This document shows, piece after piece, positions 20,466 through 41,717 of a stretch of 64,000 bases of DNA. Below the pieces are notes generated by a model. That model saw only the letters and a list, made by a program, of their open reading frames with translations. It was not told where the DNA came from and made no database searches. Numbering within the stretch: position 1 is the stretch's first letter; each line of letters opens with the position of its first letter. Origin of the DNA: Neoarius graeffei (lineage: Eukaryota; Chordata; Actinopteri; Siluriformes; Ariidae); the NCBI RefSeq assembly GCF_027579695.1, contig NC_083575.1:66873154-66937153 (forward strand), given 5' to 3'. The position numbers and the translations under genes are program-made.

Positions 20466-22379
20466 AGTTTAGATTAGATTAGATTAGATTAGATTAGATT
20501 AGATTAGATTAGATAGAACTTTATTGATCCCTTTGGGCGGGTTCCCTCAGGGAAATTAAGATTCCAGCATCATCATTACAGGATAAACAGAGAATAGAAA
20601 ATAGAGAAAAGCTTCTAGATAAATTAAATTAAGTATTTACATATACAAATATAAAAAGAATAAGATATGGGGAAGCGGCACGGTGTTGTAGTGGTTAGCG
20701 CTGTCGCCTCACAGCAAGAAGGTCCGGGTTCGAGCCCCGTGGCCGACGAGGGCCTTCTGTGTGGAGTTTGCATGTTGTCCGCGTGGGTTTCCTCCTGGTG
20801 CTCCGGTTTCCCCCACAGTCCAAAGACATGCAGGTTAGGCTAACTCCACGTTTCTCAAAGTGTGGGGCGTGTGAAATCGGAAGATTTATGTATTTATTTC
20901 TTTTGCATTCTTTATTTATGCCTTTCTGTTTTGCTTGTAAGTTACACTCGCTCAAAATGTGTTCAGTTATTGTCCTTGCTAAACGTGTTAAAGAACATTA
21001 CATAGGAAACATCTGCACTCGACACCGGCCACCTTTCCTTTTTCATTCACACTGACTATGCGTTGCTATGCGACTAACCATTGTTTACATACCTCAGAAA
21101 GATTCTCGGGCGCTACGCACGCTAGAATCTTCAAACCTGCATTCGTGCTAGCTGAGCCTGAGACATCAGAACTAGGCACGAAAATGGATACGTTTGTTAA
21201 AAGGGCCGCTAAAGTCGGGGATTTTATGGCACCAATAGTGAAGGGGAAGGCAAGTACCAAATGCCAACCTAAAAGAAAATATGTTGAGTCCTACCTTGGC
21301 TTAGGATTCACGGTAGCTGAGGTAGGTGATGAGGAGCGACCTTTATGTGTATTATGCCTGCGGCAACTGGCAGCCGACAGTATGCGGCCTAACAAATTGC
21401 GCAGACACTTGGAGACTGCACACCCCACTCACATTGATAAACCCATAGCTTTTTTTCGAACGAAAACTTGCGGAATACCGGCAGCAGGAAAAGGGAATGG
21501 TGAAAACTGCGTCAGTTAATAGCAGGGCACAGATGGCTTCATACGAAGTAGCATACCATATTGCCCAGTGCAAAAAGCCACATACAATAGCTGAGCAACT
21601 CATTCTCCCTGCTACTATTGATATGGTATCAGTTAATTGATGAGAAAAGCGCTTCCAAATTAAAATCAATCCCCCTGTCAAACGACACCGTTGAGAGATG
21701 AATTTCCGACATTTCTAATGACATCGAATCCCAACTCATTGAACAACTGCAAGAAAGTCGCTTTGCTTTACAAGTGGACGAAGCAACAGACAGCAGTAAA
21801 ACGTGCCTCTTCATTGCTTATGTCCGTTTCATAAACGAGCTGTCACTAAACGAGGATTTGCTCTTTTGCAAACCTGTACCATCAAGAGCCACGGCAGAGG
21901 AGCTGTTCAAGATTATGGACAACTACTTCAAAGAACAAGGGCTGAGGTGGGAAAATTGCTTGGGGTTCTGTTCTGATGGAGCGCAGACAATTAGTGCAGC
22001 AGATAACATAATATTTCAGAGGAATCTTTCAAATTGTGATACAAGCACCAAATTCGGCACAGATACTCCTTAGACATTTTTCTTTTGAAAAAGTACACGG
22101 GCCACTTGAAATTCAAGATGGCTGCCCATTTTAAAGATGGCCACCATGTCCAGTACAGAAATATATCATTTTGCCATAACTATGCACAGACTTGTCCGAT
22201 ATGGATGATTCTGGCATCAAATTATACATTTTTGACCATGTAGAATCCAAATCTGGGAGAATAAAATCACTCAGAAGCTTACTTTTGCCTTATTCTTGGC
22301 CTTTTGTAAAATAGTCCACTAACGTAGCTAGCATGCATGTTTGTATAGACTGTAGCAATAATTATAGTTTGGGATGTAG

Positions 22380-23114
22380 GGTGTAGCAGTAGAGGTAGAG
22401 GATGTCCTCATCATAGCAATCAGTGTTCTGCCTCTCCTTCAAGGAATTGGTCTGCACCAGTTGTGGGTGGCCTTTGGCCAAGGACGGAACCTGAGATGGA
22501 TTCCTGTACATGACCTGCACCTCTCTTTAGGACTGGAGAAGAGCAAAGGAATACTCTTCTTTCATGCCTTCACTGGTTGCAATGTTGTATCAGGCTTCCG
22601 CAGCAAAGGGAAGAAGTCTGCATGGCAAACCTGGGATGTGTATGCTGAAGCTTCTGATGTCTTTGCCAAGCTCAGCCAGTACCCACCAACAGTAGATGAT
22701 GATCTGGAGGTCCTGGAGAAGTTTGTGGTGACAATGTATGACAGGTCCAGTACAGTTGTACGTGTTGATGATGCCAGGCTGGATATGTTTGCTTGAAAGC
22801 AGAGGCCATATGAAGCCATCCCTCTAACTCAAGCAGCACTACTTCAGCATGCAAAGCGCGCTGCCTATCAAGCAGGCTGTATATGGAGTCAGTCAACACT
22901 GCGCCAACCAGAAACACAAAGTCCTGCTGACTGGGGATGGACAAAGAGTGGAGACACATGGAAGGTCTTCTGGACAACGCTTCCACCTATTGCCGAGAGT
23001 TGCCAACAGCTGACCAAATGTGGATGCAAATCTGAATGCCGTGGAAGGTGCAAATGCTACCGATTCAGTCTCACCTGCACCGGACTATGTAGCTGCAAAT
23101 GTGAGGACAAGTGA
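22380..23114 (+). pseudogene. C-terminal half of a transposon-borne protein with a CXC-rich tail
   Basis: One frame is open from 22380 to 23114 apart from a single TGA at 22794-22796. It reads LWVAFGQGRNLRWIPVHD, then FFHAFTGCNVVSGF, a WQTWDVY block and a PADWGWTKSGDTW block. It ends with a Cys-rich tail (CGCKSECRGRCKC followed by CTGLCSCKC) and stops at 23112-23114. The same architecture is familiar from many uncharacterised proteins of fish and cnidarians, where the missing N-terminal half carries a PIN/XPG-like DTDVVVLA-type motif; that is memory, not something visible here. The Cys spacing resembles CXC/TSO1 DNA-binding modules. No upstream start is available because a TAG precedes 22380, so only a decayed 3' part of the gene is carried. 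Confidence 0.55.
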
Positions 23115-23211
23115 AACCATGCAGCTGTTCACTGTATTTGACTCATTGCACTCTGCAGTGACAAACATTGACCATAACTAAACATTCCAGTTGTGCATTT
23201 AAAAATAACAA

Positions 23212-23527
23212 TGTAGCGAGAATCGCGTGTGGGTGGAGCACAGAGGACGGCAGGACAGAGATCAGGTTTGTCTATCGGCTTTATTGCCACACTTTTCAGG
23301 GTTACAATAATGTTTCAAAATAGCGAGAGAGACACACACACACACAGCGTCTCGTCCGGGGCTGAACTCCTCTGCTCTCGCTCTCCCTCCTTAAATAGGG
23401 CGGTTTACTGGGGAGAACACACAAAACACAGGTTAATGACACTCAGGTGAAGTGATTCTGCCACTTACCTTCCCCAACTCCGCCCTCCTGTCACAGACCG
23501 GTGCTTGACCACGCCCCCGCTGCCACA
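23212..23527 (-). repeat. 3' LTR of gypsy copy 1
   Basis: It is 316 bp, reading TGTGGCAGCGGGGGCGTGG to GATTCTCGCTACA on the minus strand. It has the same start as the LTRs of copy 2 but a partly different middle, so the two copies belong to different subfamilies. Confidence 0.9.
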
Positions 23528-26500
23528 TACCCCCACCGCCCGACTCAGGCCGGGTGCCCGTCCGGCCCGCAGCCGACTCCCCCCCCCTTGACGGGAGAGG
23601 AAGTCCGCCATGACCATCTGCGCCCCCGGCCTGTGGACCACCTTGAAGTTGAAAGGTTGGAGCGCCAGATACCAACGGGTGATCCGCGCGTTGGCATCCT
23701 TCATGCGGTGGAGCCACTGGAGGGGCGCGTGGTCCGAACAGAGGGTGAAAGAGCGCCCCAGCAGGTAGTAACGGAGGGCGAGGACCGCCCACTTGATGGC
23801 CAGGCACTCCTTCTCGATAGTGCTGTAGCGCCCCTCACGCACTGACAGCTTCCGGCTGATGTACAACACTGGGCGGTCCTCTCCCCCCACCTGCTGGGAC
23901 AAAACGGCCCCCAGCCCTCTGTCCGACGCATCCGTCTGCAACAAAAAGGGGAGAGAGAAGTCAGGGGAGTGCAAAAGTGGCCCCCCACACAGTGCAGCCT
24001 TTACCTCAGAGAAAGCCCGCTGGCACTGCTCCGTCCACTGGACCGGATCTGGTGCCCCCTTTTTAGTGAGGTCAGTCAGCGGGCTGGTGACGTCTGAATA
24101 ATTAGGTATAAACCTACGATAATAGCCAGCCAGCCCCAGGAACTGTCTCACCCCCTTTTTGGTCTTGGGTCTCGGGCAGGCCGCAATCGCTGCTGTCTTA
24201 TTAATTTGGGGACGCACCTGCCCGTTACCCAAGTGGAAGCCCAGATACCGTACTTCCACCCGCCCAATCGCACACTTCTTCGGGTTGGCAGTGAGCCCCG
24301 CCCGCCTCAGCGACCTAAGGACGGCCCTCAGGTGTTGCAGGTGCCGCTGCCAGTCATTACTATAAATGATGATGTCGTGTAAGTAAGCGGCCGCATAGGT
24401 GGCGTGGGGCCGGAGGATCCGGTCCATCAGCCGCTGAAACGTAGCGGGCGCCCCAAACAGCCCAAACGGAAGTGTGACGAACTGGTGTAAGCCGAACGGT
24501 GTGGAAAAGGCCGTTTTTTCCTGAGATAATGGAGTCAAGGGGATCTGCCAATATCCCTTCGTCAAATCCAGTGTCGAGTAAAAGCGAGCCGTGCCTAGTC
24601 GATCGAGCAGCTCATCAATACGAGGCATTGGGTACGCGTTGAATTTAGACACCGCATTGACTTTTCTATAGTCCACACAGAACCGGACCGAGCCGTCGGC
24701 CTTGGGAACCAAGACCACCGGGCTGCTCCAGTCACTGTGGGACTCCTCGACGATGCCCATTTCGAGCATGGCCTGAAGTTCTTCCCGAACCACCTTTTTT
24801 TTGTGTTCGGGTAATCTATAAGGACGGCTACGCACTACCACCCCCGGGGGCGTCTCTATGTGGTGTTCTATGAGGTTGGTGCGTCCGGGCCGGGGCGAGA
24901 ACACATCCGAAAACTTGGCCTGCAACTGGGCGACCTCCGTGAGTTGGGTCGGGGAGAGGTGGTCTCCACAGGGGACCGGAGAGGTGCGAGATGCCAATGA
25001 CCCTTTTTGGATCTCCGGCCCCAGCTCCGCCTTCTCCGGAACTACCGACACCAACGCCACGGGGACCTCCTCATTCCAGAGCTTCAGCAGATTGAGGTGG
25101 TAGATCTGTAGCGCCCCCTCCCTGTCCGTTCGCCTAACCTCATAGTCGACGTCCCCGACTCGCCGTGTGACCTCGAAGGGCCCTTCCCACTTGGCGATTA
25201 ATTTGGAGCTCGACGTGGGCAACAGGACGAGTACCTTATCTCCCGGAGTGAACTCTCTAAGGCGCGTGCCCTTGTTGTACAGGCGGGTTTGCCGTTCCTG
25301 GGCCTGCCGCAAATTCTCCTGAGTTAAGTGGGTGAGCGTGTGGAGTTTTGCGCGCAGATCCATAACGTATTGAATTTCATTTTTGCTCTGCGAAGGTCCC
25401 TCCTCCCAATTTTCCCGCAGTACATCTAAGATGCCGCGCGGCTTACGCCCATACAGTAATTCAAATGGGGAGAACCCCGTGGAGGCTTGGGGGACCTCTC
25501 GCACTGCAAACAACAAGGGTTCGAGCCACTTATCCCAGTTACGTGCGTCCTCACTTACGAATTTTTTGATAATATTCTTGAGGGTGCGGTTGAACCGTTC
25601 GACTAAACCGTCCGTTTGTGGGTGATACACGCTGGTGCGGATCGGCTTAATACCCAGTAGCCCATACAGTTCGGCCAGTGTTCGTGACATAAACGAGGTG
25701 CCTTGATCAGTCAGAATCTCTTTCGGGATTCCGACCCGGGAGATGACGTGGAAGAGGGCCTCTGCAATACTACGTGCGGAGATATTGCGAAGAGGCACCG
25801 CTTCTGGGTATCGCGTTGCATAGTCCACCAGAACCAATATAAAGTGGTACCCTCGTGTTGACCGATCTAATGGCCCGACGAGATCCATCCCAATTTGTTC
25901 AAACGGGGTCTCGATTAATGGTAGGGGGCGCAAGGGCGCTTTTGGAATGGCCGCTGGATTTACTAACTGGCATTCGCGGCACGCCGTACACCACTTACGG
26001 ACGTCGCCGCGAATCCCCGGCCAATAGAATCGGGCCATTATCCGGGCGAGTGTTTTATCCTGCCCGAGGTGTCCCGCCGTGGGATTAAAGTGAGCCGCCT
26101 GGAATACCAATTCCCGGCGGCTCTTTGGAATTAACAACTGGGTGACACGCTCCTTCGTCTGAGTGTCCTGCGTCACTCGGTATAACCTATCCTTTAAAAT
26201 GGAAAAATAGGGGAAGGTCGGGGTGGCATTCGGCTGGAGCGTTTGACCATCGATTACTCTCACTTGGTCAAATGCGTGTCGCAGAGTTTCGTCTCGCGAT
26301 TGTTCCAGTGGGAAATCCGCGAGGGATTCCCCAATAGAAAGAGGAGGAGCCGGGGGCTCCTCACTCTGTCGCGGAGATGACGTAGACGGCTCTGCGACCG
26401 CAGCTCCAGCCAAAACGACACCGGGACCCCCCCCGGCTAACCGGCAGGACCCACTCTTTACTAGGTGTGCCATCAACCCCCGGAATCCCGGCCAATCAGT

Positions 26501-27775
26501 CCCCAAGATTAAAGAGTGGGTAAGGCGAGGATTAACCGCCGCCTTCACTATAGATTTGTCCCCTCTGAAATGTATGTGGACCGACACCAACGGGTAGCAG
26601 TGAACATCCCCGTGCACACACAACACCTTCACCCCTTGTGCTCCCCCCAATGCCTCGTCTTGCACCAGGCTTTGGCGGATCGAGGTCTGGTTGCAACCCG
26701 AATCCACCAACGCCTGATAGGTCGCCCCTTGTACACTTACTGGTATGCGATATGCTCCGGCCTGATCGAGGGCAGCCTCTGGCGCGTCGGGGATCCGCAC
26801 CACCGCCCCCACCTCCATCGCGGCACACTGTTGCTGCAGGTGGCCTGGTTCCCCGCAGCGCCAGCAAACCGGCCCGGGCCTCCCCTCTGCAGCTGTGGAT
26901 TGAGGGTCACTCACCTGAGGGGGGGGAGAGACAGACACAGAAGGGAGAAACGGGAGGGCACCACGGGTGCGGCGGGCTGGCTGGGGTGGGGCCGGCCCCC
27001 GCCTCCGTGGTGGGGGAATGGGGCGAGGACGGGACACGGGAGGAGGGGGAAGAGAGAGAGAGAGAGAAGAGGAGAGAGAAGATGACATCCGTTGTCCTGC
27101 CGCCGGGACAGCCACCAGATGATCCTCCGCGAGTCCTACGGCCTGATCCAGCGACGCTGGGCGGTGGCACTGGACCCACTCCGCGGTTCCGGCGGGTAGG
27201 CGGGCGATGAACTGCTCCAGCGCCACCTGGTCAATGATCCCCTCGGCGTCGCGATCTTCGGCCCTCAGCCACCGCCAGCAGGCGTCCCGGAGCTGCTGGC
27301 CGAACGCGAACGGGCTGCCGACTTCCTCCATTCGCAGCGCGCGGAAGCGCTGGCGCTGCTGCTCCGGCGTGCACCCCACGCGCTGGAGGACAGCCCGGCG
27401 AAGGTCGGCGTAGGCCAGCCGGTGGTCGGCGGGGAGCTGTAGTGCGGCTAACTGCGCCTCTCCCGTCAGGAGGGGGAGGAGGCGCGCCGCGCGCTGTTCC
27501 ATCGGCCACCCCGAGGCTTCGGCGACCTGTTCGAACAACGCGATGAACGCCTCGGGGTCGTCCTGCGGGCCCATCTTAGTCAAGGTGATGGGAGATGGGC
27601 CCGCGGCCGGGGCGCTGGTGGACCCCGCCGACGCGAGGAGGCGCCGGAACGCCTCACGGTCTTCCTGTTGAGCCAGCACCAGGGCTTCGAAGCGGCGCTC
27701 CTGCTCCTTCCGGAGTGTGATGAGCGACTGGTGCTGGCTCTGCTGAGCCGTGGCGGCTATCGGCTTTATTGCCAC
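23465..27775 (-). pseudogene. Gag-pol polyprotein of gypsy copy 1 (start lost, RT active site altered)
   Basis: An open minus-strand frame of 1436 codons has the order gag, CCHC knuckle (CWRCGEPGHLQQQC), protease (LVDSGCNQTS), integrase zinc finger and DDE core, then reverse transcriptase and RNase H (QTDASDRGLGAVLSQ). The start codon of this frame lies in LTR sequence and is accidental, the genuine gag start being deleted. The RT active site reads YLHD where copy 2 has YLDD; the codon is 24377-24379. The C-terminus runs on into the LTR because the G-run before it has a different length. The frame is otherwise undamaged, so the copy died recently or can be mobilised only in trans. No function in the host is suggested. 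Confidence 0.9.
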
Positions 27776-28012
27776 ACTTTTCAGGGTTACAATAATGTTT
27801 CAAAATAGCGAGAGAGACACACACACACACAGCGTCTCGTCCGGGGCTGAACTCCTCTGCTCTCGCTCTCCCTCCTTAAATAGGGCGGTTTACTGGGGAG
27901 AACACACAAAACACAGGTTAATGACACTCAGGTGAAGCGATTCTGCCACTTACCTTCCCCAACTCCGCCCTCCTGTCACAGACCGGTGCTTGACCACGCC
28001 CCCGCTGCCACA
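27757..28012 (-). repeat. Truncated 5' LTR of gypsy copy 1
   Basis: 256 bp matching 23272-23527. The junction at 27757 passes directly into gag codons (Ala-Thr-Ala-Gln-Gln), so R/U5 sequence, primer-binding site and about 15 N-terminal codons were removed in one deletion. Confidence 0.88.
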
Positions 28013-29311
28013 AACAAATAAATAAAATAGTTTGTAGGATATGTTCTGGTCTATGTATATTTTTCATCATATTTTTGCTAGAAATGGCAGAAAGGAGCTC
28101 CCTAGATGGTTAAGAGTGGGATTTTTAGATTTCTCATAGTCAAAAACCTACTTTTAGACACCAAGATCATTCAAATCGGTCAAAGTGGCCAGATTATATC
28201 CCATTTTCAAGTCTGCAGCAGCGGCCATCTTGAAAATAAGCAGCCATCTTGAATTTCAGATGGCCCACGTACTTTTTCAAAAGAATAATGTCTAAGGAGT
28301 ATTTGTGCCAAGTTTGGTGCTTGTATCACCATTTGAAAGATTGTTTCAGTTATCTGCTACACTAAATGGCAGGAAAAAGGAAGGGACTCCAGGCATTGAT
28401 CAAAAGGGCCACGCCAGATACACAGTGGACGCACTGCATTCTACACAGGGAAGTGCTGGCCTCCAGACACCTCAGCCCCGAATTAAACGAGGTGTTGACA
28501 GCAGTTGTGGATGTGGTCAGTTTTATCAAAACAAGACCCCTGAAAGCGCGACTCTTCTCCACTATTTGTGAGGAGATGGGAGCAGACCATACCGCTGTGC
28601 TGTTTCACAGCGAAGCGAGGTGGCTCTCCCGAGGCAAAGTCTTGTCGCGCGGCTTTGAGCTCCGAACAGAGATCCGGGTGTTTTTAGAAGAAGAGCGCAT
28701 GTATGAGGCAGCGGCCAAATTTGGCGATGAACTGTTTCTGATGAAACTGGCTTACCTCAGCGATGTATTTGCAAAGCTGAATGAATTAAATTTTCAGCTT
28801 CAGGGAAAAGACAAGTACCTACCTCACCTGGCTGACAAGATCACTGCTTTCATCCGAAAGCTGGAGGTATGGGGGAAGCGCGTTGATCAAGGACATACCG
28901 AAGTCTTCGAAAATCTCACTGAAGTCGCAGAGCGCATCGATTCTGGTGCCACCGCAGTGATCCCGTGTATACAGCAGCACATCACAGCCAGGGGCACCGC
29001 TAGAAATCTTGGGTCCTATGAAAGATTACAATTTAGGGCCCCCCCCCCGGTAAAATTTTCAAGCTCAAGCAACTGAATTTGAAGTCTGTTTTTGGCTTGC
29101 ACTTCTACTTTACTATGCATGTGATCAGCTACCTAGCAAGTTTAGGTGATACAATTATTTGGTATATGAGCATTTTAAATGCAGAACTGTCAGAATTAGA
29201 CTGAATAGACTATTGCTTTAAAATGAAAATTCCATGATATATATTGAAGATATGTATTTTTTCTTTTATGAGCAACTATTATTAGGCCACTCAGTAGCCT
29301 ATGGAGTTCAT

Positions 29312-29689
29312 CTCATCTCATCTCATTATCTCTAGCCGCTTTATCCTGTTCTACAGGGTCGCAGGCAAGCTGGAGCCTATCCCAGCTGACTACGGGCGAA
29401 AGGCGGGGTACACCCTGGACAAGTCGCCAGGTCATCACAGGGCTGACACATAGAGACAGACAACCATTCACACTCACATTCACACCTACGGTCAATTTAG
29501 AGTCACCAGTTAACCTAACCTGCATGTCTTTGGACTGTGGGGGAAACCGGAGCACCCGGAGGAAACCCATGCGGACACGGGGAGAACATGCAAACTCCAC
29601 ACAGAAAGGCCCTCGCCGGCCACAGGGCTCGAACCCGGAACTTCTTGCTGTGAGGTGACAGTGCTAACCACTACACCACCGTGCCGCCC
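29312..29689 (-). mobile_element. SINE type A with 14-bp duplication
   Basis: CCTATGGAGTTCAT flanks it at 29298-29311 and 29690-29703. On the minus strand it has a full tRNA-like head, body and the CTCATCTCATCTC-complement tail. It is essentially full length (378 bp). Confidence 0.9.
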
Positions 29690-30633
29690 CCTATGGAGTT
29701 CATTCAATCCAAATGTTTGTGTTGAGAGAAACTGCATGCATCACTGTATCAGTATGGATTTATAACATTCTTTATGCACATTATGGATACTCCAGAGCCC
29801 TCCAGCAAACATCATCAATAATCAGGATTACAAAATGTATTCCTTTGTTTCCTCCATTTATTGACAATGTATGTGATCAAATGTATGCCTTGATGAATAA
29901 CTACACTAGTTTTTTGATACAATTACATAGTGCACTGCGAGAAATCCACTAAGTGTTTTTGGTTTCTTTTAGGCATCACACATTTATTAGAAAACACAGC
30001 AAATGTTCAAATATTCAAGTTAAATACTTAGCAACAGTATCAATAAATCCACACATGAACAATAGCAATGATATCTATGACCACAGCTAATGTGCAACAT
30101 ATTAAAGTTAAATACAATCCACACATGAACAATGGCAAAACATCTTGATTTAATTAATTATACAATAAAGATACCTATGAAAAAAGGTGATTTTTTTTCA
30201 CACACAGTGTGATATCCGGACTTCATAATTCATCACACCTGCTCCTGCTTAGCAACTTCTAGACTGTACACCTCTGTTGCGCACATAGAAAAACTGACAG
30301 CTGATCTAAGCTGCGCTAATAGCGGCGCTGTGCATACACGGAGCTACACATTTCACGTGTCCCGCGCCCAGAATCAGACTGTACCATTAGTAAAAAAGGG
30401 TGGAGGGGTGAAATGACAATATCATAAATAATTCAAGAAAAATGTTATAGCAAATCATAACCATGTATAATTTGCATATTTTAACAGATGAAATGAACTA
30501 TTTTATTTCAAAAACTTACACAAGGCAATAGAGTGCTTCGAGGTTAGCGCGAACCCAGCGGCGGCCATATTGGAAGTCAAAGGTCGCTGTGTCAGTGCAT
30601 TGTTGTTGTTCAGCGAAGCAAAAAGGGGTGACA

Positions 30634-30844
30634 ATGCCAAATACGTGTGTCATTGTTGGCTGTAGTAGCCAGAGGGAAAAGGGTGGCAAAAGCTTCCACA
30701 GACTCCCTAAAGTCGTGACTAACCAGGGAATTGCAGCACAGGAGAAAAGCGAGCGGAGGAGACGACAGTGGCTGGCTGCCATCAACCGATCAAATTTAGG
30801 ACAACTTGACTGTATCCGGATTTGTTCTGATCACTTTGTGACAG
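30634..30844 (+). pseudogene. THAP-domain exon of a transposon
   Basis: It reads MPNTCVIVGCSSQREK from ATG 30634, continues with RRRRQWLAAINRSN and ends with ICSDHFVTG before a GTAGGT donor. The Cys pair and the C-x2-H ligand of the THAP zinc finger are present. The following exons that would encode the transposase core are missing. Confidence 0.6.
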
Positions 30845-31034
30845 GTAGGTTAAATTGTCTTGAATTTCATAGTTACTAAAATAAATGTGATACAAACTAT
30901 TATCTTTTCTATGTACTTTCAGCAATGATTAATGGATATATTTGTCACATTAGGTAGCTTATGTCTACTGCAGTGCATTGTTGCATCAAATGGCATTTAA
31001 GATCTAGGCCTAGTAATGTTTATGTACACATGCT

Positions 31035-31232
31035 TTAGTTCACAAAATGGACTTGGTGAAACACTAGATAGTTCACAAGATCGATGTATGTCACATGCGG
31101 CAACAAGCTGGGGTCAGCTTTCCATTCCTTCTCACTAACAGTGTATGGATCTACATTCCCAATGAAACGTAACTTCTCAGCATAACACTCCCGTGCCTGC
31201 TTATCCAAACTTTCACAGTAGTGCTCCATCAC
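31035..31232 (-). pseudogene. ORF2 fragment of the same THAP element
   Basis: The minus-strand frame contains CYAEKLRFIGNVDPY and YIDLVNYLVFHQVHF. The pattern (DPY ... DLVNYLVF) matches the fragment at 4578-4826 (DPY ... DISNYLVLQ), so both come from the same gene type. It is truncated after 65 residues. Confidence 0.55.
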
Positions 31233-32713
31233 TTCAGATGTCTAAATTCTTAAAAAATCCAAGCTTCTAAGCCCTCTAACGCGGAAACGAATCGGTGAAT
31301 GTGTACTCTATGATGTGTACTCTATGAGCGCTCTGGAGCGAGTGACTTCCAAGATGGCCGCGCAGACCGCAGTGTTACTATTTTTAGCATCATCTTGGAG
31401 CACTCTATACTATTAAAATAATATTAATATCCCTCACAGGCCCCCCTGTCAGTGCCAGGCCCTTAGAATCGTCCTAACTCCCCCCCCCCCCCCCCCAGTG
31501 GCGCCCCTGATCACGGCATTGAGAGGATTCTTTAAAAAATACTTTCCCAACAGTGCTACACTATTGACTGGATAGTGGACCCATTTCATGCTGCAGGTAT
31601 CTATCTGTCTGTCTGTCTGTCTGTCTTGTTAATGTGCAATGGCAAATAAAGTTTTTCATTTCTTTCTGCAGCACCAGCTGATTTTAGCTCTGCTGAAGAG
31701 GAACAACTGATTGAAATGACCTCTGACTCCACCCTGAGGTTAAGATTTACATCTCAGGCACTCAGTCAATTTTGGCTGGAAGTTGAAAGCCAGTACCCAC
31801 TCATTGGGCAGAGAGCTGTGGGCATTCTTCTTCCCTTTGCCACATCTTATCTCTGTGAGATTGGTTTTTCAGCAGTTGCTTCGCTAAAAACAAAGTACAG
31901 ATCTCAGCTTGACATTGAGCATGACTTGAGAGTGGCAGTTTCAAGCGTTCAACCCCGTTTCGAAAAAATCTGTAGCACAAAACAGGCCCATTGCAGTCAC
32001 TAATGCTGTGAAGGCAGTCATTTGTTCACCTGCCTCTGCCCTGCCTCTTTGTAAAGTTTAAAAAGTGACAAACTTAAGCACAATTTTTATTTAATTTTCC
32101 CATTTTCTATATAATTTTTTATTTTTAAACATTGTTCTTAATGTTGCTGGTGTTGAGAGGACTAGATAGAAATTTGTTACTTAGATAAATTTTGAAAAAT
32201 TGTGAACTTGAGTTATTTTTAACATTTTTATTTTGAACATATTGAATGTATCTGATGTTGTTATACAATAGAAATTGCTACAAATTGATGTTACCTCAAT
32301 AAATTGAAAAATATGAACTTGTGTATTTTTTTTTTTTACCATTTTGTTGGTGTGATATGGGACAAGTGGGGTGCAGAAAAATCCCCTTCTTCTGAGGTGG
32401 GGAATGATAGAAAAAGTTTGAGAAGCACTGGGTTAACTGGTGACTCTAAATTGACCGTAGGTGTGAATGTGAGTGTGAATGGTTGTCTGTGTCTATCTGT
32501 CCGCCCTGTGATGACCTGGCGACTTGTCCAGGGTGTACCCCGCCTTTCGCCCGTAGTCAGCTGGGATAGGCTCCAGCTTGCCTGCGACCCTGTAGAAGGA
32601 TAAAGCGGCTAGAGATAATGAGATGAGATGAGAAGATATGGGGAAGGGGCCAGCAGGAGAGATATTGCACATTATATTGCACATTGTCCAGTATTGCTTA
32701 TTGTTAGGCTAGG

Positions 32714-34146
32714 CTACTGCTCCTTCCCGTCCTCTGTCCTCCTGTTACCCCTCCTCCCCCCCAGAGAGGAGTTGTACAGTCTGATGGCATGAGAGACAAA
32801 GGAGTTTTTAAGTCTGTTCGTCCTGCACTTGGGAAGGAGCATTCTGTCACTGAACAGGCTCCTCTGGTTGCTGATGACGGTGTGCAGAGGGTGACTGGCA
32901 TCATCCATGACGTTCAATAGTTTGTCCATAGTCCTCTTCTCTGCCACTGTCACCAGAGAGTCCAGCTTCATGTCGACCACAGAGCCGGCCCGCCTGATCA
33001 GTTTGTCCAGCCTGGATGTGTCCTTCTTGGATGTGCTGCCCCCCCAGCACACCACAGTGTAAAACAGGACACTGGCAACCACAGACTGATAGAACATTCA
33101 CAGGAGTTTCCTGCAGATGTTAAAGGACCGCAGTCTCCTAAGGAAGTATAGCCTGCTCTGTCCCTTCTCGTATAAGTGATTGGTGTTGCAAGTCCAGTCC
33201 AGCTTGCTGTCCAGCCACAGCCCGAGGTACTTGTAGGAATCCACAGCCTCCACCTCGACTCCCTCAATCAGAACTGGTCGTGACCTTGGTCTGGACCTCC
33301 CAAAGTCAATGACCAGCTCCTTGGTCTTTGAGGTGTTGAGCTGCAGATGGTTCCTGTTGCACCACACAGCAAAGTCCCTCACCAGGCTCCTATGTGCCTC
33401 CTCTCTGTCGTCACTGATACACCCAACGATGGCTGTGTCATCGGCAAACTTCTGAATGTGACACAGCTCCGAGTTGTAGCAGAAGTCCGCGGTGTACAGG
33501 GTGAAGAGAAAGGGGCCAGCACCATGCCCTGGGGTGCTCCGGTGCTGCTAATCACAGTGTCAGACGTGATGTCCTTCATCCTGACATACTGCGGCCTGTC
33601 GGTGAGGTAGCTGGAGATCCAGGTGACCAGGCAGGGGTCCACTCGCATCCTGTTCAGTTTGTCCTGAAGCAAAAGGGGCTGGATGGTGTTGAAGGCACTC
33701 GAGAAGTCCAAGAAGACTCACTGTGCCATTTCCTTTATCCAGATACGAGTGGGCTCGGTGTAGCAGGTAGAGGATGGCGTCTTCCACACCAACACCTGCC
33801 CAGTACACAAACTGCAGACAGTCCTGGGCATGTTGTACCTGGGGTCTGAGGAGGCTAAGGAAGAGCCGCTCCAATGTCTTCATCAGATGTGAAGTGAGTG
33901 CCACCGGTCGGAAGTCGTTCAGCTCGCTGGGCCAATTCTTTTTGGGAACTGGAACGATGCATGATGTCTTCCAGAGGGTGGGCACTCTCTCCACAGCTGC
34001 AGGCTGAGGTTGAAGATGCGTTGGAGTGGTTCACCCAGTTCAGCAGCGTAGGTCTTCAGTAGTCGGGGACACACCTTGGCCAGGCCTGCGCTGCTGAACC
34101 ACTCCAACGCATCTTCAAATCTTGACTGACCATGATCGGAGATCAC
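32714..34146 (-). pseudogene. LINE reverse transcriptase, frameshifted
   Basis: Several overlapping minus-strand frames together give an RT fragment: FRPVALTSHLMKTLERL, DFSSAFNT, GAPQGMVLAP, a FADDTAIVG active-site block near 33440, then LNTSKTKELVIDFGR and a C-terminal tail ending LYNSSLGGRR. The FADD residues are present, but frameshifts near 33110, 33390, 33720 and 33990 break the frame. The endonuclease domain is missing, so the copy is 5' truncated. Near its 5' end a 22-base inverted repeat occurs (34012-34033 with 34096-34117). It is not functional. Confidence 0.8.
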
Positions 34147-35019
34147 TTAAACTCTTGGTGTTGAATCATAAAATAAATCGACAGTTGAACTCATGGCTAT
34201 GTTTAAAGGTAGACTGCCTTTCAGATTTCTCAAGTGTAGGTCATAAAAAGAATTTTCCCTGACACCCAATTATTTTTGTTTAGTGGACCAAAAGCTACTG
34301 AATTTGAATCACAGATTCCCGATTTTGTTAGTTTTTTTTTTAATATAAATAGAACAATTAATGAATTTAGGGCCATGTGGCCCTCAATTCTCTACAATTT
34401 TTTCCTGCTTCACCATGACCCAATTCAAGATACCACGTCATGCATCATGTGGTGGGCTTTCCCTGTTCACGCAAGGCACTGTGGAATACAAATTTGAAAC
34501 AGGAGAGAAAATGGAGGATGTGAGTGTGCGAATGAAACGTGAAAGACCGACTACACTAATGGAAAGTGAGAAGAAAAGACGTTATGTTATAAAGGAAAGG
34601 AAACGCAGGACCAAACTAATAAATATCGGCGGTCAGCGAGCACCTCGGTGTGATCAGCTGTTCGTTTAGTGACAGAATGATGTAACTGTCAGTGCACGGT
34701 CAAAGGTAAACCTGTAGATGGCAGTAATGCAACACTGTGGATGCCAGCTGCCGTAAAACCCAAAAGAAGAAGAAGAAGAAAGTAAACCTGCGCATGTGCA
34801 CACGGACTTCCTCTGTCTGCTTGACTGCGTAAAGCAAGCGATTTCATGCACATTATTTGCTCGGGAATCCCCTCAAATTAAATAACTTCCCAGCCACAGG
34901 ATGGCCTGATATTTTGTGAGATATTACAGAAATAATCATATATCACGATGACCAAATTTCAGAGGGAACTAAATTTTACTGATTTTATGAAATCGAAAGG
35001 TCGTCTAGCTTTAATAGTG
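34147..35019. other. No gene supported; weak open frame and GAA run
   Basis: A Lys/Arg-rich frame (34361-34669) ends at 34669 and lacks any motif I recognise. A GAA run lies at 34767-34780. Text around 34670-34760 resembles old transposon sequence, but no ends were found. Confidence 0.4.
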
Positions 35020-35148
35020 AATCTAACTGGAATAAAAGGCGTCAATTTGCTAGAAAGCATAAAGATTGGACTTTAGAGCAATGGAAAAAGGTCATATGGA
35101 CTGATGAGTCCAGATTCAGCCTATTCCAGAGAGATGGGCATATCAAGG

Positions 35149-35460
35149 TGTGGCAGCGGGGGCGTGGTCAAGCATCGGTCTGTGACAGGAGGGTGGAGCC
35201 GGGGAAGGTGAGTGGCAGATTCGCTACACCTGACGGTAATTAACCTGTGTTTTGTGTGTGTTTTCCCAGTAAACCGCTCCCTATTTTAAGAGGCTGAGAG
35301 AGAGCAGAGGGAGCGCGACCCGGGAGTGGAGGCTGAGAGTGTGTCTGTGTGCTGCGAGTTCTTTTTAAACTGAAAAGTTTATTAATAAAATACGCTGTTA
35401 CTACCTCCAAACATTGTCCTGCCGTCCTCTGTGCTCCACCCACGCATTGTCCGCGCTACA
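35149..35460 (+). repeat. 5' LTR of gypsy copy 2
   Basis: 312 bp, TGTGGCAGCGGGG to CCGCGCTACA. A TATTTTAAG element lies near 35282 and an AATAAA signal near 35393, as expected for transcription start and polyadenylation within an LTR. Confidence 0.93.
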
Positions 35461-35461
35461 G

Positions 35462-35479
35462 TGGTGCCGAAACCCAGGA
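35462..35479 (+). promoter_or_regulatory. Primer-binding site of gypsy copy 2
   Basis: TGGTGCCGAAACCCAGGA lies one base after the LTR and begins with TGG, complementary to a tRNA CCA end. The specific tRNA was not assigned. Confidence 0.75.
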
Positions 35480-35507
35480 AAAGGTGGAGCACCAGTGCTA
35501 CAGCTCC

Positions 35508-38500
35508 ATGGAATCCTCCCCGTTCGCGGACTTGGTCCACGCCCTCGCCACGGCTCAGCAGAGCCAGCACCAGGCACTCGTCACGCTCCGAACGGAGCAG
35601 GAGCGCCGCTTCGAAGCCCTGGTGCTGGCTCAACAGGAAGATCGAGAGGCGTTCCGGCGGCTCCTCGCGTCGGCGGGGTCCACCAGCGCCCCGGCCGCGG
35701 GCCCGTCTCCCCTCACTGTGACCAAGATGGGCCCGCAGGACGACCCCGAGGCTTTCATCACCTTGTTCGAGCAGGTCGCCGAAGCCTCGGGGTGGCCGAT
35801 GGAGCAGCGCGCGGCGCGCCTCCTCCCCCTCCTGACTGGAGAGGCGCAGCTGGCCGCATTACAGCTCCCCGCCGACCGCCGGCTGGCCTACGCTGACCTT
35901 CGCCGGGCCGTCCTCCAGCGCGTGGGGCGCACGCCGGAGCAGCAGCGCCAGCGCTTCCGCGCGCTGCGGATGGAGGAAGCCGGCAGCCCGTTCGCGTTTG
36001 GCCAGCAGCTCCGGGACGCCTGCTGGCGGTGGCTGAGGGCCGAAGATCGCGACGCCGAGGGAATCATCGACCAGGTGGCGCTGGAACAGTTCGTTGCCCG
36101 CTTACCAGCCGGAACCGCGGAGTGGGTCCAGTGCCACCGCCCGGCGTCGCTGGATCAGGCCGTAGGACTGGCGGAGGATCATCTGGCGGCTGTACCGGCG
36201 GCAGGACAACGGATGACATCGTCTTCTGTCTCCTCTTCTCTCTCTCTGTCTTCCCCCCCTCCTCCCGTGTCCCGTCCTCGCCCCATTCCCCCACCACGGA
36301 GGCGGGGGCCGGCCCCACCCCAGCCGGCCCGCCGCACCCGTGGTGCCCTCCCGTTTCTCCCTTCTGTGTCTGTCTCTCCCCCCCCTCAGGTGAGTGAGCC
36401 CCAGAACACAGTTGCAGAGGGGAGGCCCGGGCCGGTTTGCTGGCGCTGCGGGGAACCGGGCCACCTGCAGCAACAATGTGCAGCGATGGAGGTGGGGGCG
36501 GTGGTGCGGATCCCCGACGCGCCAGAGGCTGCCCTCGATCGGGCCGGAGCGTATCGCATACCGGTAAGTGTACAAGGGGCTACATATCAGGCGTTGGTGG
36601 ATTCAGGCTGCAATCAGACCTCGATCCGCCAAAGCCTGGTGCAAGACGAGGCATTGGGGGGAGCACAAGGGGTGAAGGTGTTGTGTGTGCACGGGGATAT
36701 TCACAGCTACCCGTTGGTGTCAGTCCACATATATTTTAGAGGGGAAAAATCTATAGTGAAGGCGGCGGTTAATCCTCGCCTTACCCACTCTTTGATCTTG
36801 GGGACCGATTGGCCGGGATTTCGGGGTTTAATGGCACGCCTAGTAAAGAGTGGGTCCTGCCGGTTGACGGGGGAGGGTCCCGGTGTCGCTTTGGCTGGAG
36901 CGGCGGTCGCAGAGCCGTCTACGTCACCTCCGCGACAGGGGGAGGAGCCGCCGGCCCCTCCTCTTTCTATTGGGGAATCCCTCGTGGATTTCCCACTGGA
37001 ACAATCGCGAGACGAGACTCTGCGACACGCGTTTGACCAAGTGAGAGTAATCGATGGTCAAACGCTCCAGCCGAACGCCACCCCGTCCTTCCCCTATTTT
37101 TCCATTTTGAAGGATAGATTATATCGAGTGACGCAGGACACTCAGACGAAAGAGCGAGTCACCCAGTTATTAATTCCAAAGAGCCGCCGGGAATTGGTAT
37201 TCCAGGCGGCCCACTTTAATCCCATGGCTGGACACCTCGGGCAGGATAAGACACTCGCCCGGATAATGGCCCGATTCTATTGGCCGGGGATTCGCGGCGA
37301 CGGCCGTAAGTGGTGTACGGCGTGCCGCGAATGCCAGTTAGTAAATCCAGCGGCCATTCCAAAAGCGCCCTTGCGCCCCCTACCATTAATCGAGACCCCG
37401 TTCGAAAGAATTGGGATGGATCTCGTTGGGCCATTAGATCGGTCAACACGAGGGTACCGCTTTATATTAGTCCTGGTGGACTATGCAACGCGATACCCGG
37501 AAGCGGTGCCTCTTCGCAATATCTCAGCACGCAGTATTGCAGAGGCCCTCTTCCACGTCATCTCCCGGGTTGGAATCCCGAAAGAGATTCTGACTGACCA
37601 AGGCACCTCGTTTATGTCACGAACACTGAGCGAACTGTATGGGCTACTAGGTATTAAGCCGATCCGCACCAGCGTTTATCACCCACAGACGGACGGTTTA
37701 GTTGAACGGTTCAATCGCACCCTCAAGAATATTATTAAAAAATTCGTAAGTGAGGACGCACGTAACTGGGATAAGTGGCTCGAACCCTTGTTGTTTGCAG
37801 TGCGAGAGGTCCCCCAAGCCTCCACGGGGTTTTCCCCGTTTGAATTATTATACGGGCGTAAGCCGCGCGGCATCTTAGATGTACTGCGGGAAAATTGGGA
37901 GGAGGGACCTTCACAGAGCAAAAACGAAATTCAGTACGTTATGGATCTGCGCGCAAAACTCCCCACGCTCACCCACCTAACTCAGGAGAATTTGCGGCAG
38001 GCCCAGGAACGGCAAACCCGCCTGTACAACAAGGGCACGCGCCTTAGAGAGTTCACTCCGGGAGAGAAGGTACTCGTCCTGTTGCCCACGTCGAGCTCCA
38101 AATTAATCGCCAAGTGGCAAGGACCCTTTGAGGTCACACGGCGAGTCGGGGACGTCGACTACGAGGTTAGGCGAACGGACAGGGAGGGGGCGCTACAGAT
38201 CTACCACCTCAATCTGCTGAAACTCTGGAATGAGGAGGTCCCCGTGGCGTTGGTGTCGGTAGTTCCGGAGAAGGCGGAGCTGGGGCCGGAGGTCCCCAAA
38301 GGGTCATTGGCATCACGTACCTCTCCGGTCCCCTGTGGAGACCACCTCTCCCCGACCCAACTCGCGGAGGTCGCCCAGTTGCAGGCCGAGTTTTCGGATG
38401 TGTTCTCGCCCCTGCCCGGTCGCACGAACCTCATAGAACACCACATAGAGACGCCCCCGGGGGTGGTAGTGCGTAGCCGCCCTTATAGACTACCCGAACA

Positions 38501-39761
38501 CAAAAAAAAGGTGGTTCGGGAAGAACTTCAGGCCATGCTCGAAATGGGCATCGTCGAGGAGTCCCACAGTGACTGGAGCAGCCCAGTGGTCTTGGTTCCC
38601 AAGGCCGACGGGTCGGTCCGGTTCTGTGTGGACTATAGAAAAGTCAACGCGGTGTCTAAATTCGACGCATACCCAATGCCTCGTATTGATGAGCTGCTCG
38701 ATCGACTAGGCACGGCTCGCTTTTACTCGACACTGGATTTGACGAAGGGATATTGGCAGATCCCCTTGACTCCATTATCCCGAGAGAAAAAGGCCTTTTC
38801 CACACCGTTCGGCTTACACCAGTTCGTCACACTTCCGTTTGGGCTGTTTGGGGCGCCCGCTACGTTTCAGCGGCTGATGGACAGGGTCCTCCGGCCGCAC
38901 GCCACCTATGCGGCCGCGTACCTAGACGACATCATCATTTATAGCAATGACTGGCAGCGGCACCTGCAACACCTGAGGGCCGTCCTTAGGTCGCTGAGGC
39001 GGGCGGGACTCACTGCCAACCCGAAGAAGTGTGCGATTGGGCGGGTGGAAGTACGGTATCTGGGCTTCCACTTGGGCAACGGGCAGGTGCGTCCCCAAAT
39101 TAATAAGACTGCAGCGATTGCGGCCTGCCCGAGGCCCAAGACCAAAAAGGGGGTGAGACAGTTCCTGGGGCTGGCTGGCTACTATCGTAGGTTTATACCT
39201 AATTATTCGGACGTCACCAGCCCGCTGACTGACCTCACTAAAAAGGGGGCACCAGATCCGGTCCAGTGGATGGAGCAGTGCCAGCGGGCTTTCTCTGAGG
39301 TAAAGGCTGCACTGTGTGGGGGGCCACTCTTACACTCCCCTGACTTCTCTCTCCCTTTTTTGTTGCAGACGGATGCGTCGGACAGAGGGCTGGGGGCCGT
39401 TTTGTCCCAGCAGGTGGAGGGGGAGGACCGCCCAGTCCTATACATCAGCCGCAAGCTGTCAGTGCGTGAGGGGCGCTATAGCACCATTGAGAAGGAGTGC
39501 CTGGCGATCAAGTGGGCGGTCCTCGCCCTCCGTTACTACCTGCTGGGGCGCTCTTTCACCCTCTGTTCGGACCACGCGCCCCTCCAGTGGCTCCACCGCA
39601 TGAAGGATGCCAACGCGCGGATCACCCGTTGGTATCTGGCACTCCAACCCTTCAACTTCAAGGTGGTCCACAGGCCGGGGGCGCAGATGGTCGTGGCGGA
39701 CTTCCTCTCCCGTCAAGGGGGGGGGGGAGTCGGCTGCAGGCCGGACGGGCGCCCGGCCTGA
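35508..39761 (+). CDS. Gag-pol polyprotein with integrase before reverse transcriptase
   Basis: One uninterrupted frame of 1417 codons runs from ATG 35508 (MESSPFADLVHALATAQQ). The frame is open upstream, but this Met follows the leader and matches the gag reading. Approximate positions are: gag 1-300; CCHC knuckle 311 (CWRCGEPGHLQQQC); aspartic protease 363 (LVDSGCNQTS); integrase H2C2 finger 568-609; DDE core Asp 640, Asp 697 and Glu 733 (TDGLVERFNRT); reverse transcriptase 990-1200 with YLDD near 1137; RNase H 1286 on (QTDASDRGLGAVLSQ). Integrase upstream of RT is the copia-like order known among Ty3/gypsy elements from gmr1-type retrotransposons of deuterostomes. There is no gag-pol frameshift or stop, so processing must come from the protease. 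The copy looks competent, but activity is not shown. Confidence 0.95.
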   Translation: MESSPFADLVHALATAQQSQHQALVTLRTEQERRFEALVLAQQEDREAFRRLLASAGSTSAPAAGPSPLTVTKMGPQDDPEAFITLFEQVAEASGWPMEQRAARLLPLLTGEAQLAALQLPADRRLAYADLRRAVLQRVGRTPEQQRQRFRALRMEEAGSPFAFGQQLRDACWRWLRAEDRDAEGIIDQVALEQFVARLPAGTAEWVQCHRPASLDQAVGLAEDHLAAVPAAGQRMTSSSVSSSLSLSSPPPPVSRPRPIPPPRRRGPAPPQPARRTRGALPFLPSVSVSPPPQVSEPQNTVAEGRPGPVCWRCGEPGHLQQQCAAMEVGAVVRIPDAPEAALDRAGAYRIPVSVQGATYQALVDSGCNQTSIRQSLVQDEALGGAQGVKVLCVHGDIHSYPLVSVHIYFRGEKSIVKAAVNPRLTHSLILGTDWPGFRGLMARLVKSGSCRLTGEGPGVALAGAAVAEPSTSPPRQGEEPPAPPLSIGESLVDFPLEQSRDETLRHAFDQVRVIDGQTLQPNATPSFPYFSILKDRLYRVTQDTQTKERVTQLLIPKSRRELVFQAAHFNPMAGHLGQDKTLARIMARFYWPGIRGDGRKWCTACRECQLVNPAAIPKAPLRPLPLIETPFERIGMDLVGPLDRSTRGYRFILVLVDYATRYPEAVPLRNISARSIAEALFHVISRVGIPKEILTDQGTSFMSRTLSELYGLLGIKPIRTSVYHPQTDGLVERFNRTLKNIIKKFVSEDARNWDKWLEPLLFAVREVPQASTGFSPFELLYGRKPRGILDVLRENWEEGPSQSKNEIQYVMDLRAKLPTLTHLTQENLRQAQERQTRLYNKGTRLREFTPGEKVLVLLPTSSSKLIAKWQGPFEVTRRVGDVDYEVRRTDREGALQIYHLNLLKLWNEEVPVALVSVVPEKAELGPEVPKGSLASRTSPVPCGDHLSPTQLAEVAQLQAEFSDVFSPLPGRTNLIEHHIETPPGVVVRSRPYRLPEHKKKVVREELQAMLEMGIVEESHSDWSSPVVLVPKADGSVRFCVDYRKVNAVSKFDAYPMPRIDELLDRLGTARFYSTLDLTKGYWQIPLTPLSREKKAFSTPFGLHQFVTLPFGLFGAPATFQRLMDRVLRPHATYAAAYLDDIIIYSNDWQRHLQHLRAVLRSLRRAGLTANPKKCAIGRVEVRYLGFHLGNGQVRPQINKTAAIAACPRPKTKKGVRQFLGLAGYYRRFIPNYSDVTSPLTDLTKKGAPDPVQWMEQCQRAFSEVKAALCGGPLLHSPDFSLPFLLQTDASDRGLGAVLSQQVEGEDRPVLYISRKLSVREGRYSTIEKECLAIKWAVLALRYYLLGRSFTLCSDHAPLQWLHRMKDANARITRWYLALQPFNFKVVHRPGAQMVVADFLSRQGGGGVGCRPDGRPA

Positions 39762-39778
39762 GTCGGGCGGTGGGGGTA

Positions 39779-40090
39779 TGTGGCAGCGGGGGCGTGGTCA
39801 AGCATCGGTCTGTGACAGGAGGGTGGAGCCGGGGAAGGTGAGTGGCAGATTCGCTACACCTGACGGTAATTAACCTGTGTTTTGTGTGTATTTTCCCAGT
39901 AAACCGCTCCCTATTTTAAGAGGCTGAGAGAGAGCAGAGGGAGCGCGACCCGGGAGTGGAGGCTGAGAGTGTGTCTGTGTGCTGCGAGTTCTTTTTAAAC
40001 TGAAAAGTTTATTAATAAAATACGCTGTTACTACCTCCAAACATTGTCCTGCCGTCCTCTGTGCTCCACCCACGCATTGTCCGCGCTACA
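39779..40090 (+). repeat. 3' LTR of gypsy copy 2
   Basis: 312 bp, identical to the 5' LTR except for one G-to-A difference. Confidence 0.95.
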
Positions 40091-40637
40091 CAAGGTAAGC
40101 AAGGAAGTGCATGAAGTGATAAACCCATCATGCACAGTCCAGTGTTATGGTGTTGCTTCAATTGGTAATGTTTAGGCCCAGCAATATTTATGTGGCAATA
40201 AAATAAAGCCAGATGACTACCTGAATGTACTGAATGACCAGGTTATCCCTAACAAAAAAGAAGTTTATTCAAGTGTGCTTCTAGTATACTTCTTTTAAAC
40301 TAAAAATAAGAGTATGCTTTCAGTTTACTTTTTATTTACTTATAGAATAGAATGCCTTTATTGTCACTATACACATGTACAATGAGATTAAAGCATCTCC
40401 AATAACAGTGCAAACAGCGTGTAGAGAGAGAGGAGAAAAAAAGGGGGGAGGGTGTAAGGGGGGTAAGGTGCACAGTCCTGAGATGTATGTGTTGTGTTAC
40501 ACATTGTGGAGTGAGGTATTGCTCATTGCACATTATAAAGTATTGCACAGAGACAGTCACATTATAAAGTATTGCACATTATAAATTTTTGCACGAGAGA
40601 GTCGCATTATAAAATAAAATATTACACATTATGAAGT

Positions 40638-40769
40638 GCCCTGTGATGACCTGGCGACTTGTCCAGGGTGTACCCCGCCTTTCGCCCATAGTCAGCTGGG
40701 ATAGGCTCCAGCTTGCCTGCGACCCTGTAGAACAGGATAAAGCGGCTAGAAATAATGAGATGATATGAG
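40638..40769 (+). mobile_element. 5'-truncated SINE type A tail with 12-bp duplication
   Basis: ACATTATGAAGT flanks it at 40626-40637 and 40770-40781. Only the 3' third of the SINE is present (CCCTGTGATGACCTGG to GATGATATGAG). Confidence 0.85.
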
Positions 40770-40908
40770 ACATTATGAAGTATTGCAAGGTAAGGTAAGG
40801 TGCACAGACTTGAGGTGTATGTGCTGTGTGTAAGGTGCACAGTCCTGAGGTGAATGTGTTGTGTGTAGGGTGCACAGTCCTGAGGTGTATGTGTTGTGTG
40901 TAAGGCTG

Positions 40909-41550
40909 CTGGGCCATAGAAGGTTCACGCTGCACGCTGCATGCTGCACGCTACACGCTACACGTTCACGTGAAGAACCGGACCCTGGGCCATTAAACTT
41001 CATGCTTGGATGTTCACGTGTTGCGTCTGTTCTACTTTGACCGAGTAATACAACAATAACCAACAATATGGACTCTTCGGATGACGACGATTGCCTCATT
41101 CTGCTTTTACTGAGACAGAGGAAGAGAAAAAGGAACAGAATTTGGAGCCGAGAACACTTCCTTCTGAGAGAAACCCGTGGTGAATTTCACCGAACATTCT
41201 ATAATATGCTTGACAATCCCGATGAAGAACTATTTTTCAATTATACCATTCAATTATATTTTTTCTGAAGTTTTCCCCTGAAAGCATAGAGTTATCTCCC
41301 TAGACCCGTTCTGATTGGCTGGCGCGGCGGTGACCGCATGCATTGACTGGAATTTCCATCTTCACGCCTAGAAAAAAGTGTGCATGTTCATTTCATGCTT
41401 CACGCGTGAAGTGTGCAGCGTGCAGCGTGCAACGTGAACGCCATTCTATGGCCCAGAGCAAGTCATGCTACGTTTGTCCACTTTTCTTTACACGCGTGTA
41501 GCGTGTAGTGTGCAGCATGCAGCGTGCAGCGTGAACCTTCTATGGCCCAG
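40909..41550. mobile_element. Harbinger-like transposon, internally deleted
   Basis: The ends are inverted: CTGGGCCATAGAAGGTTCAC and GTGAACCTTCTATGGCCCAG. A candidate 3-bp duplication CTG lies at 40906-40908 and 41551-41553. Subterminal tandem copies of TGCACGCTGCATG-like units lie at 40926-40970, and a second inverted set lies at 41400-41450 (GAACGCCATTCTATGGCCCAG-like), so a shorter nested end may also exist. Confidence 0.7.
41068..41268 (+). pseudogene. N-terminal piece of Harbinger-type transposase
   Basis: MDSSDDDDCLILLLLRQRKR is followed by WSREHFLLRETRGEFHRTFYNML and DEELFFNYT. The Arg-rich segment followed by a GEFHxL...FFNY motif is the usual N-terminus of HARBI1-like nucleases. The frame ends at 41268 and the DDE domain is absent. 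The link to the enclosing inverted ends supports a Harbinger origin for the element. Confidence 0.6.
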
Positions 41551-41717
41551 CTGCCTAAGGTGCACAGTCCTGAGGTGAATGTGTTGCGTTTCACATTATG
41601 GAGTGAGGTATTGCACATTATAAAAGTATTGCACAGAGAGAGTCATCTTATAAAGTACTGCACATTATAAATTATTGCACGAAGAGAGTCACATAGTAAA
41701 ATAAATAGACTATAAAG

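Follow-up and report, generated by a model that had tools for sequence, protein, structure and literature searches.

A stack of eight transposable elements, belonging to seven families and nested to five levels, was identified within a 64,000-nucleotide stretch of the Neoarius graeffei genome (G000:C7:66873154-66937153; here termed the window, with positions counted from its first letter). The stack includes a long interspersed nuclear element (LINE), a short interspersed nuclear element (SINE) that occurs twice, the transposons hAT#1 and hAT#2, an element with the ends TAGTG...CACTA (the TAGTG element), a gypsy element (gypsy 1), and a short element encoding a THAP domain; an earlier note on this DNA had counted six families. 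The genome searched for related copies comprised 2.34 Gb. The stack is genuine and its order could be read as follows: the LINE received SINE#1, SINE#1 received hAT#1, and hAT#1 received both the TAGTG element (itself interrupted by gypsy 1) and hAT#2 (itself interrupted by SINE#2 and the THAP element).

The outermost host, the LINE, lies on the minus strand and is split into (i) a 3′ part with a (TTAGA)n tail (20466..20675, including the left target duplication of SINE#1); and (ii) a remainder with a reverse transcriptase (RVT_1; 32647..34089), at the end of which (34089) homology to two other copies stops. SINE#1 (plus strand) is bordered by identical copies of the target-site duplication (TSD) AAGATATGGGGAAG (20662-20675 and 32633-32646) and is itself separated into a left half (20676..20845), the last letters of which are the octamer GGCTAACT, and a right half (32431..32632), the first letters of which are the octamer GGTTAACT. 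These two octamers (20838-20845 and 32431-32438) differ by one mismatch and represent the 8-bp TSD of hAT#1, a landing site that recurs in this family. hAT#1 (plus strand) is distributed over a first part with the 5′ end and the N-terminal part of the transposase (20846..21991), a middle transposase part (28365..28988), and a last part with the C-terminal transposase region and the 3′ end ...CACTG (31510..32430). Between the first two parts lies the TAGTG element (plus strand; TSD AAT at 21989-21991 and 28365-28367), composed of a 5′ part (21992..23211) with a short open reading frame (ORF) of Cys-rich end that is also present in copy L072, and a 3′ part (28018..28364). The two are parted by gypsy 1, a long terminal repeat (LTR) element on the minus strand (23212..28012; TSD AACAA, 23207/28013). 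hAT#2 with its inserts occupies 28989..31509 on the plus strand (TSD ATCACAGC/ATCACGGC, 28981/31510, one mismatch) and hosts SINE#2 on the minus strand (29312..29689; identical TSDs of CCTATGGAGTTCAT at 29298-29311 and 29690-29703) as well as the 877-bp THAP element on the plus strand (30530..31406; ends AGAGTGC...GCACTCT; TSD AT at 30528-30529 and 31407-31408). The earlier note had reported target duplications at most levels; these were found for all seven insertions, while for the LINE itself none was detected when exact shared words of at least 6 letters were sought near its ends.

Chance is excluded by empty sites, and not by the length of the TSDs, because unfilled paralogues exist for every level. 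For hAT#1 the comparison set consisted of 15 other copies (L003-L017, at least 94% identity), with the duplicate L002 set aside. The TAGTG site was uninterrupted in all 15, the match of which to the junction query starts with the first base of AAT (base 10 of the query), and the hAT#2 site was empty in 14 (in L010 by way of its extension L083), with L017 deleted at this position. Similarly, SINE#2 was missing from all 18 other hAT#2 copies, and 17 of them displayed the unfilled THAP site, either as GGCAATACTATT or with one letter changed, L028 being unaligned there. The gypsy 1 site was read through in nine of ten TAGTG copies, five with the exact restored letters, and the match to the tenth (L068) ends 27 nt short of the site. 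All seven LINE copies fetched besides that of the window were free of a SINE at the SINE#1 site, which is adjoined by purine-rich length variation; one LINE copy, L085, has a different SINE slightly upstream of this site. The restored hosts therefore align over the junctions to other members of their families, and the insertion order proposed in the earlier note is upheld. The frame was also restored as had been claimed: when short flanks were joined over both internal junctions, the hAT#1 ORF was continuous and read like the uninterrupted natural ORF of copy L004.

Comparison with another locus was provided by a segmental duplicate (G000:C7:66683279-66695796) of the stretch at 22165..48594 (plus strand), which lies on the same chromosome, ~217 kb further upstream, and matches in pieces at 96-99% identity. 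Six aligned blocks, representing part of the stretch, displayed 116 differences over 10,214 sites (~1.1%). When the hAT#1/TAGTG junction was used as a query, one other locus with a TAGTG end was recovered, and this was the duplicate. Junctions common to both loci were the right end of the TAGTG element, the left end of hAT#2, both ends of SINE#2, and the left end of the THAP element. In addition to these filled sites, the duplicate supplied empty ones: there is no interruption at the gypsy 1 site, where AACAA is present once, or at the site of a second gypsy element of the window, gypsy 2 (35149..40090, plus strand, TSD CAAGG), where CAAGG is likewise present once. The duplicate is without window positions 31153-34948 (a 3.8-kb deletion), carries a private SINE flanked by a separate target duplication, and differs from the window in its outer flanks. 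On the left it is bounded within the TAGTG element, and on the right by the end of a SINE. LTR elements seldom leave a site without a solo LTR and the duplicate sites are empty; thus, gypsy 1 and gypsy 2 are shown to have entered the window copy only after the duplication. The duplication is an anchor in the order, since four insertions precede it and two follow it. Dating by LTR divergence was too weak, with one difference over 256 aligned sites for gypsy 1 (LTR lengths 316 and 256 nt, the high-coordinate copy being the shorter) and one over 312 sites for gypsy 2; the order was instead taken from presence and absence alone. gypsy 2 has the opposite orientation to gypsy 1, and its host looks Tc1-type by eye.

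The step from SINE#1 to hAT#1 was examined across the hAT#1 family, which includes 16 copies, the same set being obtained by similarity and by the 5′-end pattern (18 genome places at one mismatch or fewer, of which 16 were the family; the other two, L079 and L080, had no hAT#1 similarity). At least one flank was read for all 16. Half of the copies (the window, L003, L007, L009, L010, L013, L015, and L016) were found at one and the same SINE octamer, GGTTAACT, with L013 inserted in the reversed orientation; both ends were seen in six of these eight. The outer left SINE flanks were unrelated in the six copies compared (the window and L009 were not among them), the sole similarity being 21 nt at an E-value of 0.21, and the SINE identities to the reference ranged from 84% to 99% among the SINE-inserted copies compared. 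No SINE was present in the flanks read for the remaining eight copies. In a literature search, thin on subscription journals, none of the papers listed dealt with a fixed SINE octamer as an entry site of hATs.

CAGNG is a hAT-type terminal inverted repeat, and ends of this kind were found in hAT#1, with CAGCG, CGGCG, CCACG, and CAGCA at the 5′ end and CACTG (CACTA in L014) at the 3′ end. Most copies also have TSDs of the nnnTAnnn type (GGTTAACT, GGCTAATT, AGCTAGGT, CTGTAGGC, GTCTAAGG, GGTTATAC, and, at one end, GTCTAATC); those that do not fit were GTTCAGTA, AGGACTTA (one end), and TTAAGTTT of L003 (one end), and the two ends of L012 disagree (GTATATAT/AGTATATA). The nnnTAnnn form is the 8-bp consensus given for Buster-type hAT transposons in passages of PMC3499496 and PMC3517528. 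hAT#1 is like the Buster-type elements in its mostly TA-centred 8-bp TSDs and CAGNG-type ends, but differs from them in that a single octamer of a single SINE family accounts for half of its insertions. The best Pfam match, DUF4371 in the L004 ORF, was below the cut-off (E-value 8e-05), and neither a hAT dimerisation domain nor any curated hAT domain reaching the cut-off was found in the hAT#1 pieces searched against Pfam. Within the hAT#1 coding region of the window, an intron-like stretch (31597-31671; GT...AG, with a CTGT repeat) coincides with a position at which several other copies break alignment.

hAT#2 served as a comparison family. Its ends are CAGGGG...CCCCTG, and the 8-bp target duplication and inverted ends of the hAT superfamily were found. 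Among the 18 copies examined, the TSDs agreed in 11 of the 14 with both ends (eight exactly and three with one mismatch); L037, L040, and L044 are in GT repeats, where TSDs do not resolve. The SINE was detected in the 80 nt before the 5′ end of none of the 18 copies. This comparison is weaker than it looks, as the 18 copies represent at most ~13 separate insertions; L040 and L044 resemble each other in their right flanks, and a further group of five copies with common flanks is considered below.

Other hAT-like elements were found to follow the same SINE octamer. The left half of the SINE joined to CAGNG occurred in the genome 51 times exactly (L013 among them) and 106 times with one mismatch or fewer, compared with none for the reversed pattern. 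The first eight listed of the 51 exact GGTTAACT+CAGNG junctions were read 134 nt past the octamer and by eye presented hAT-like ends, of seven different sequences. Together with the junctions at two other octamers described below, these findings indicate that several TA-centred SINE octamers are entry points for many hATs. Elsewhere in the window (49338-49859) a SINE (49389-49766) lies inside an element of which a relative, L096, follows a SINE octamer at another locus, so both arrangements, a hAT in a SINE and a SINE in a hAT, occur in one genome.

We consider that an ordinary succession of transpositions, with strong target preference at one step, built the stack, and assign this reading a probability of about 0.88. 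Several results weigh against it, or narrow it. For two of the eight SINE-inserted copies (L003 and L010) the evidence comes from the 5′ end alone, and the octamer of L003 is degraded. The SINE octamers intended as negative controls did not behave as such: (i) CTCTAAAT had 296 junction-like matches, at least 100 of them exact; and (ii) GGCTAGAG had 62 matches, 25 of them exact. The eight junctions read from these two sets (five of the 100 or more exact junctions at CTCTAAAT and three of the 25 at GGCTAGAG, in each case the first listed) look alike; as for the GGTTAACT junctions, 16 in all, left sides only were read. Since CTCTAAAT and GGCTAGAG are also hAT entry points, GGTTAACT is not the sole one, and it is special for hAT#1 and not for hATs generally; none of the 16 hAT#1 copies was at CTCTAAAT, compared with half at GGTTAACT. 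A non-TA control was badly chosen: of its 735 matches 19 were exact (the reversed pattern gave seven), and 17 of these were CAGTG, only two substitutions away from the sequence of the SINE itself, leaving two exact matches of another kind; SINE mutation thus confounds this control. Genome-wide, GGTTAACT occurred 266,769 times on both strands compared with 80,022 for the reversed pattern, and the SINE holds an estimated 70% of the GGTTAACT sites, so that an octamer-preferring family would mostly hit SINEs; octamer recognition alone could explain the recurrence, without any specificity for the SINE outside the octamer. Finally, composite copying of hAT-bearing repeats does occur in this genome, though it was not seen for hAT#1: five of the 18 hAT#2 copies (L029, L031, L035, L039, and L041) share their target as well as their flanks, over at least 265 nt on the left and ~140 nt on the right. 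In these five copies, hAT#2 is either carried in another repeat or has repeatedly struck one site of that repeat.

The abundance of the SINE site (251,537 genome matches at two or fewer mismatches in 23 letters), together with the half of the hAT#1 copies that are elsewhere, would accord with hAT#1 having met the SINE by pure chance in a repeat-rich genome, SINEs being common and no preference being required. However, eight of 16 copies in the same octamer have a probability of ~1e-18 if TA-centred positions are hit at random and of ~2e-28 if any position is, and chance is scarcely credible as an explanation. Transport of SINE and hAT#1 as a single composite unit, whether retroposed or inside a larger repeat, is no more credible than chance. 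Retroposed DNA transposons have been reported in primates (PMC11195612), and the five flank-sharing hAT#2 copies provide a parallel within this genome, but the outer left flanks of the six hAT#1 copies compared are unrelated and their SINEs are of widely different identity, L013 is reversed, and half of the family has TSDs outside the SINE.

A single hAT#1 insertion into one SINE, spread from SINE to SINE by gene conversion or recombination, fares somewhat better and is still improbable. It would account for all eight copies occupying the same SINE position, and one edge of the segmental duplicate coincides with the end of a SINE, such that SINE-mediated exchange may occur at this locus. Counter to this, L013 is in the opposite orientation, the duplicated octamers differ between copies (GGTTAACT, GGCTAATT, GGCTAACT/GGTTAACT, and GGTTAACT/GTTTAACT), and other hAT-like ends follow the same octamer. 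The SINE and non-SINE copies are also intermixed in a tree of the 16 hAT#1 copies, in which the SINE label changes six times (shuffled mean 5.6), on a topology that is weakly supported (none of 13 inner branches starred). An assembly error, with haplotypes mis-joined to give the stack or its duplicate, is very unlikely. The duplicate differs from the window by only the ~1.1% noted above and the analysis was based on the assembled sequence; nonetheless, the expected TSD is present at every junction, for each of which an empty site is known, and the duplicate has different outer flanks, a SINE with a target duplication of its own, and its own deletion.

The succession of transpositions with one preferred target thus remains the favored reading, and the events were as follows. 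A LINE copy was struck by a SINE, and the SINE then by hAT#1 at the octamer GGYTAACT. hAT#1 gained the TAGTG element and, separately, hAT#2, which in turn gained the second SINE and the short THAP element. Part of the stack and ~14 kb to its right were copied to or from the place ~217 kb away, with gypsy 1 and gypsy 2 arriving in the window copy afterwards. The recurrent position of hAT#1, the unrelated outer flanks of the six copies, and the presence of both orientations suggest, as the simplest account, a preference of the hAT#1 transposase for an octamer that is TA-centred and near-palindromic; the SINE, which multiplied this site to ~250,000 copies, may act as a genome-wide landing pad without itself having to be recognized. 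It is fairly probable, in our estimation, that this extends to a whole class of hAT transposons, with a highly amplified SINE offering a field of identical landing sites, several TA-centred octamers serving as entry points for many hAT families, and half of the low-copy family hAT#1 settling in one of them, such that part of the nesting reflects target choice and not time.

These findings bear on the relative clock that the earlier note had drawn from the locus. The nesting order itself stands. However, the TAGTG element and hAT#2 are siblings in hAT#1, and nesting alone gives no order between them; likewise, the step from SINE to hAT#1 orders this pair at this locus and is not a random tick of the clock, because it is a preferred-target event (eight of 16 family copies). 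The stack as such is ordinary for a repeat-rich genome, and what distinguishes it is the target choice at one step and the duplication that anchors six insertions in their order. Clocks built on nesting counts presume that younger elements fall into older ones by chance, and a target preference like that of hAT#1 would bias them. Transposition-in-transposition (TinT) and related clocks, as described in passages of PMC3014933, read nested insertions as relative family ages. The present locus is alike in giving relative ages of families, but differs in being one locus with checked empty sites, a duplication between events, and one preferred-target step. According to passages of PMC6911290, nested plant LTR retrotransposons favor certain regions within other elements and have a weak preference for palindromes; the element-into-element preference is similar here, but the inserting element is a DNA transposon of the cut-and-paste kind and its target is one octamer of a SINE. 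The system provides a testable case in which the success of a retroelement sets where DNA transposons go, and SINE landing sites may keep DNA transposons out of genes.

The other families of the stack were assigned by their domains and ends. In the 877-bp THAP element of the window, the ORF matched PF05485 at 41.2 bits (cut-off 23.9). AT was found on both sides of this element, as it was for 18 of the 19 other copies, the 3′ end of L050 not being placed. A THAP domain is a feature of the PHIS group, and the TSD of ISL2EU elements is AT; by its domain and AT duplications, the element fits the PHIS group. Passages on PHIS TSD lengths describe short duplications of 0-4 bp. For the TAGTG element, the TSDs were 3 bp in the four sibling copies with both ends (TTG, ATA, ACA, and ATA; ten copies fetched), as is AAT in the window. 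An XPG nuclease domain is a feature of Academ elements; no XPG match was found in the 245-amino acid ORF of copy L072, the best PDB match of which (E-value 0.17) was not convincing. The TSD length agrees with the 3-4 bp stated for AcademX in passages of PMC10045372, but assignment to Academ was not accepted because the XPG domain was not found in this short copy; the copies are short and the domain may be deleted. For the TAGTG family, a 361-nt query yielded 40 scored matches at 97-100% among 128 candidates. This TAGTG...CACTA family (window 21992-28364 and L066-L075) combines its 3-bp duplications with a Cys-rich ORF end without a match to a Pfam family.

The coding region of gypsy 1 (minus strand) has rve and H2C2 at 25202-26131 and RVT_1 and RNase H at 23561-24991, placing the integrase upstream of the reverse transcriptase. 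This is the order of the Gmr1-type Ty3/gypsy elements in passages of PMC8220671, from which gypsy 1 differs in being a copy with a shortened LTR. The SINE has a B-box-like sequence, GGTTCGAGCCC, and a middle part reminiscent of the V domain; presumably, it is a member of the V-SINE family. Passages of PMC6887750 treat this family, though not its letters.

At the 5′ end of the LINE, a short inverted piece continues to ~34118 after homology stops, with one arm of a perfect 24-nt inverted repeat at 34095-34118; this region (34010-34118) suggests an inverted piece made at integration. At a larger scale, the window includes an inverted repeat pair (1-2131 and 50801-53026), the members of which are ~50 kb apart and 84-98% identical in pieces.

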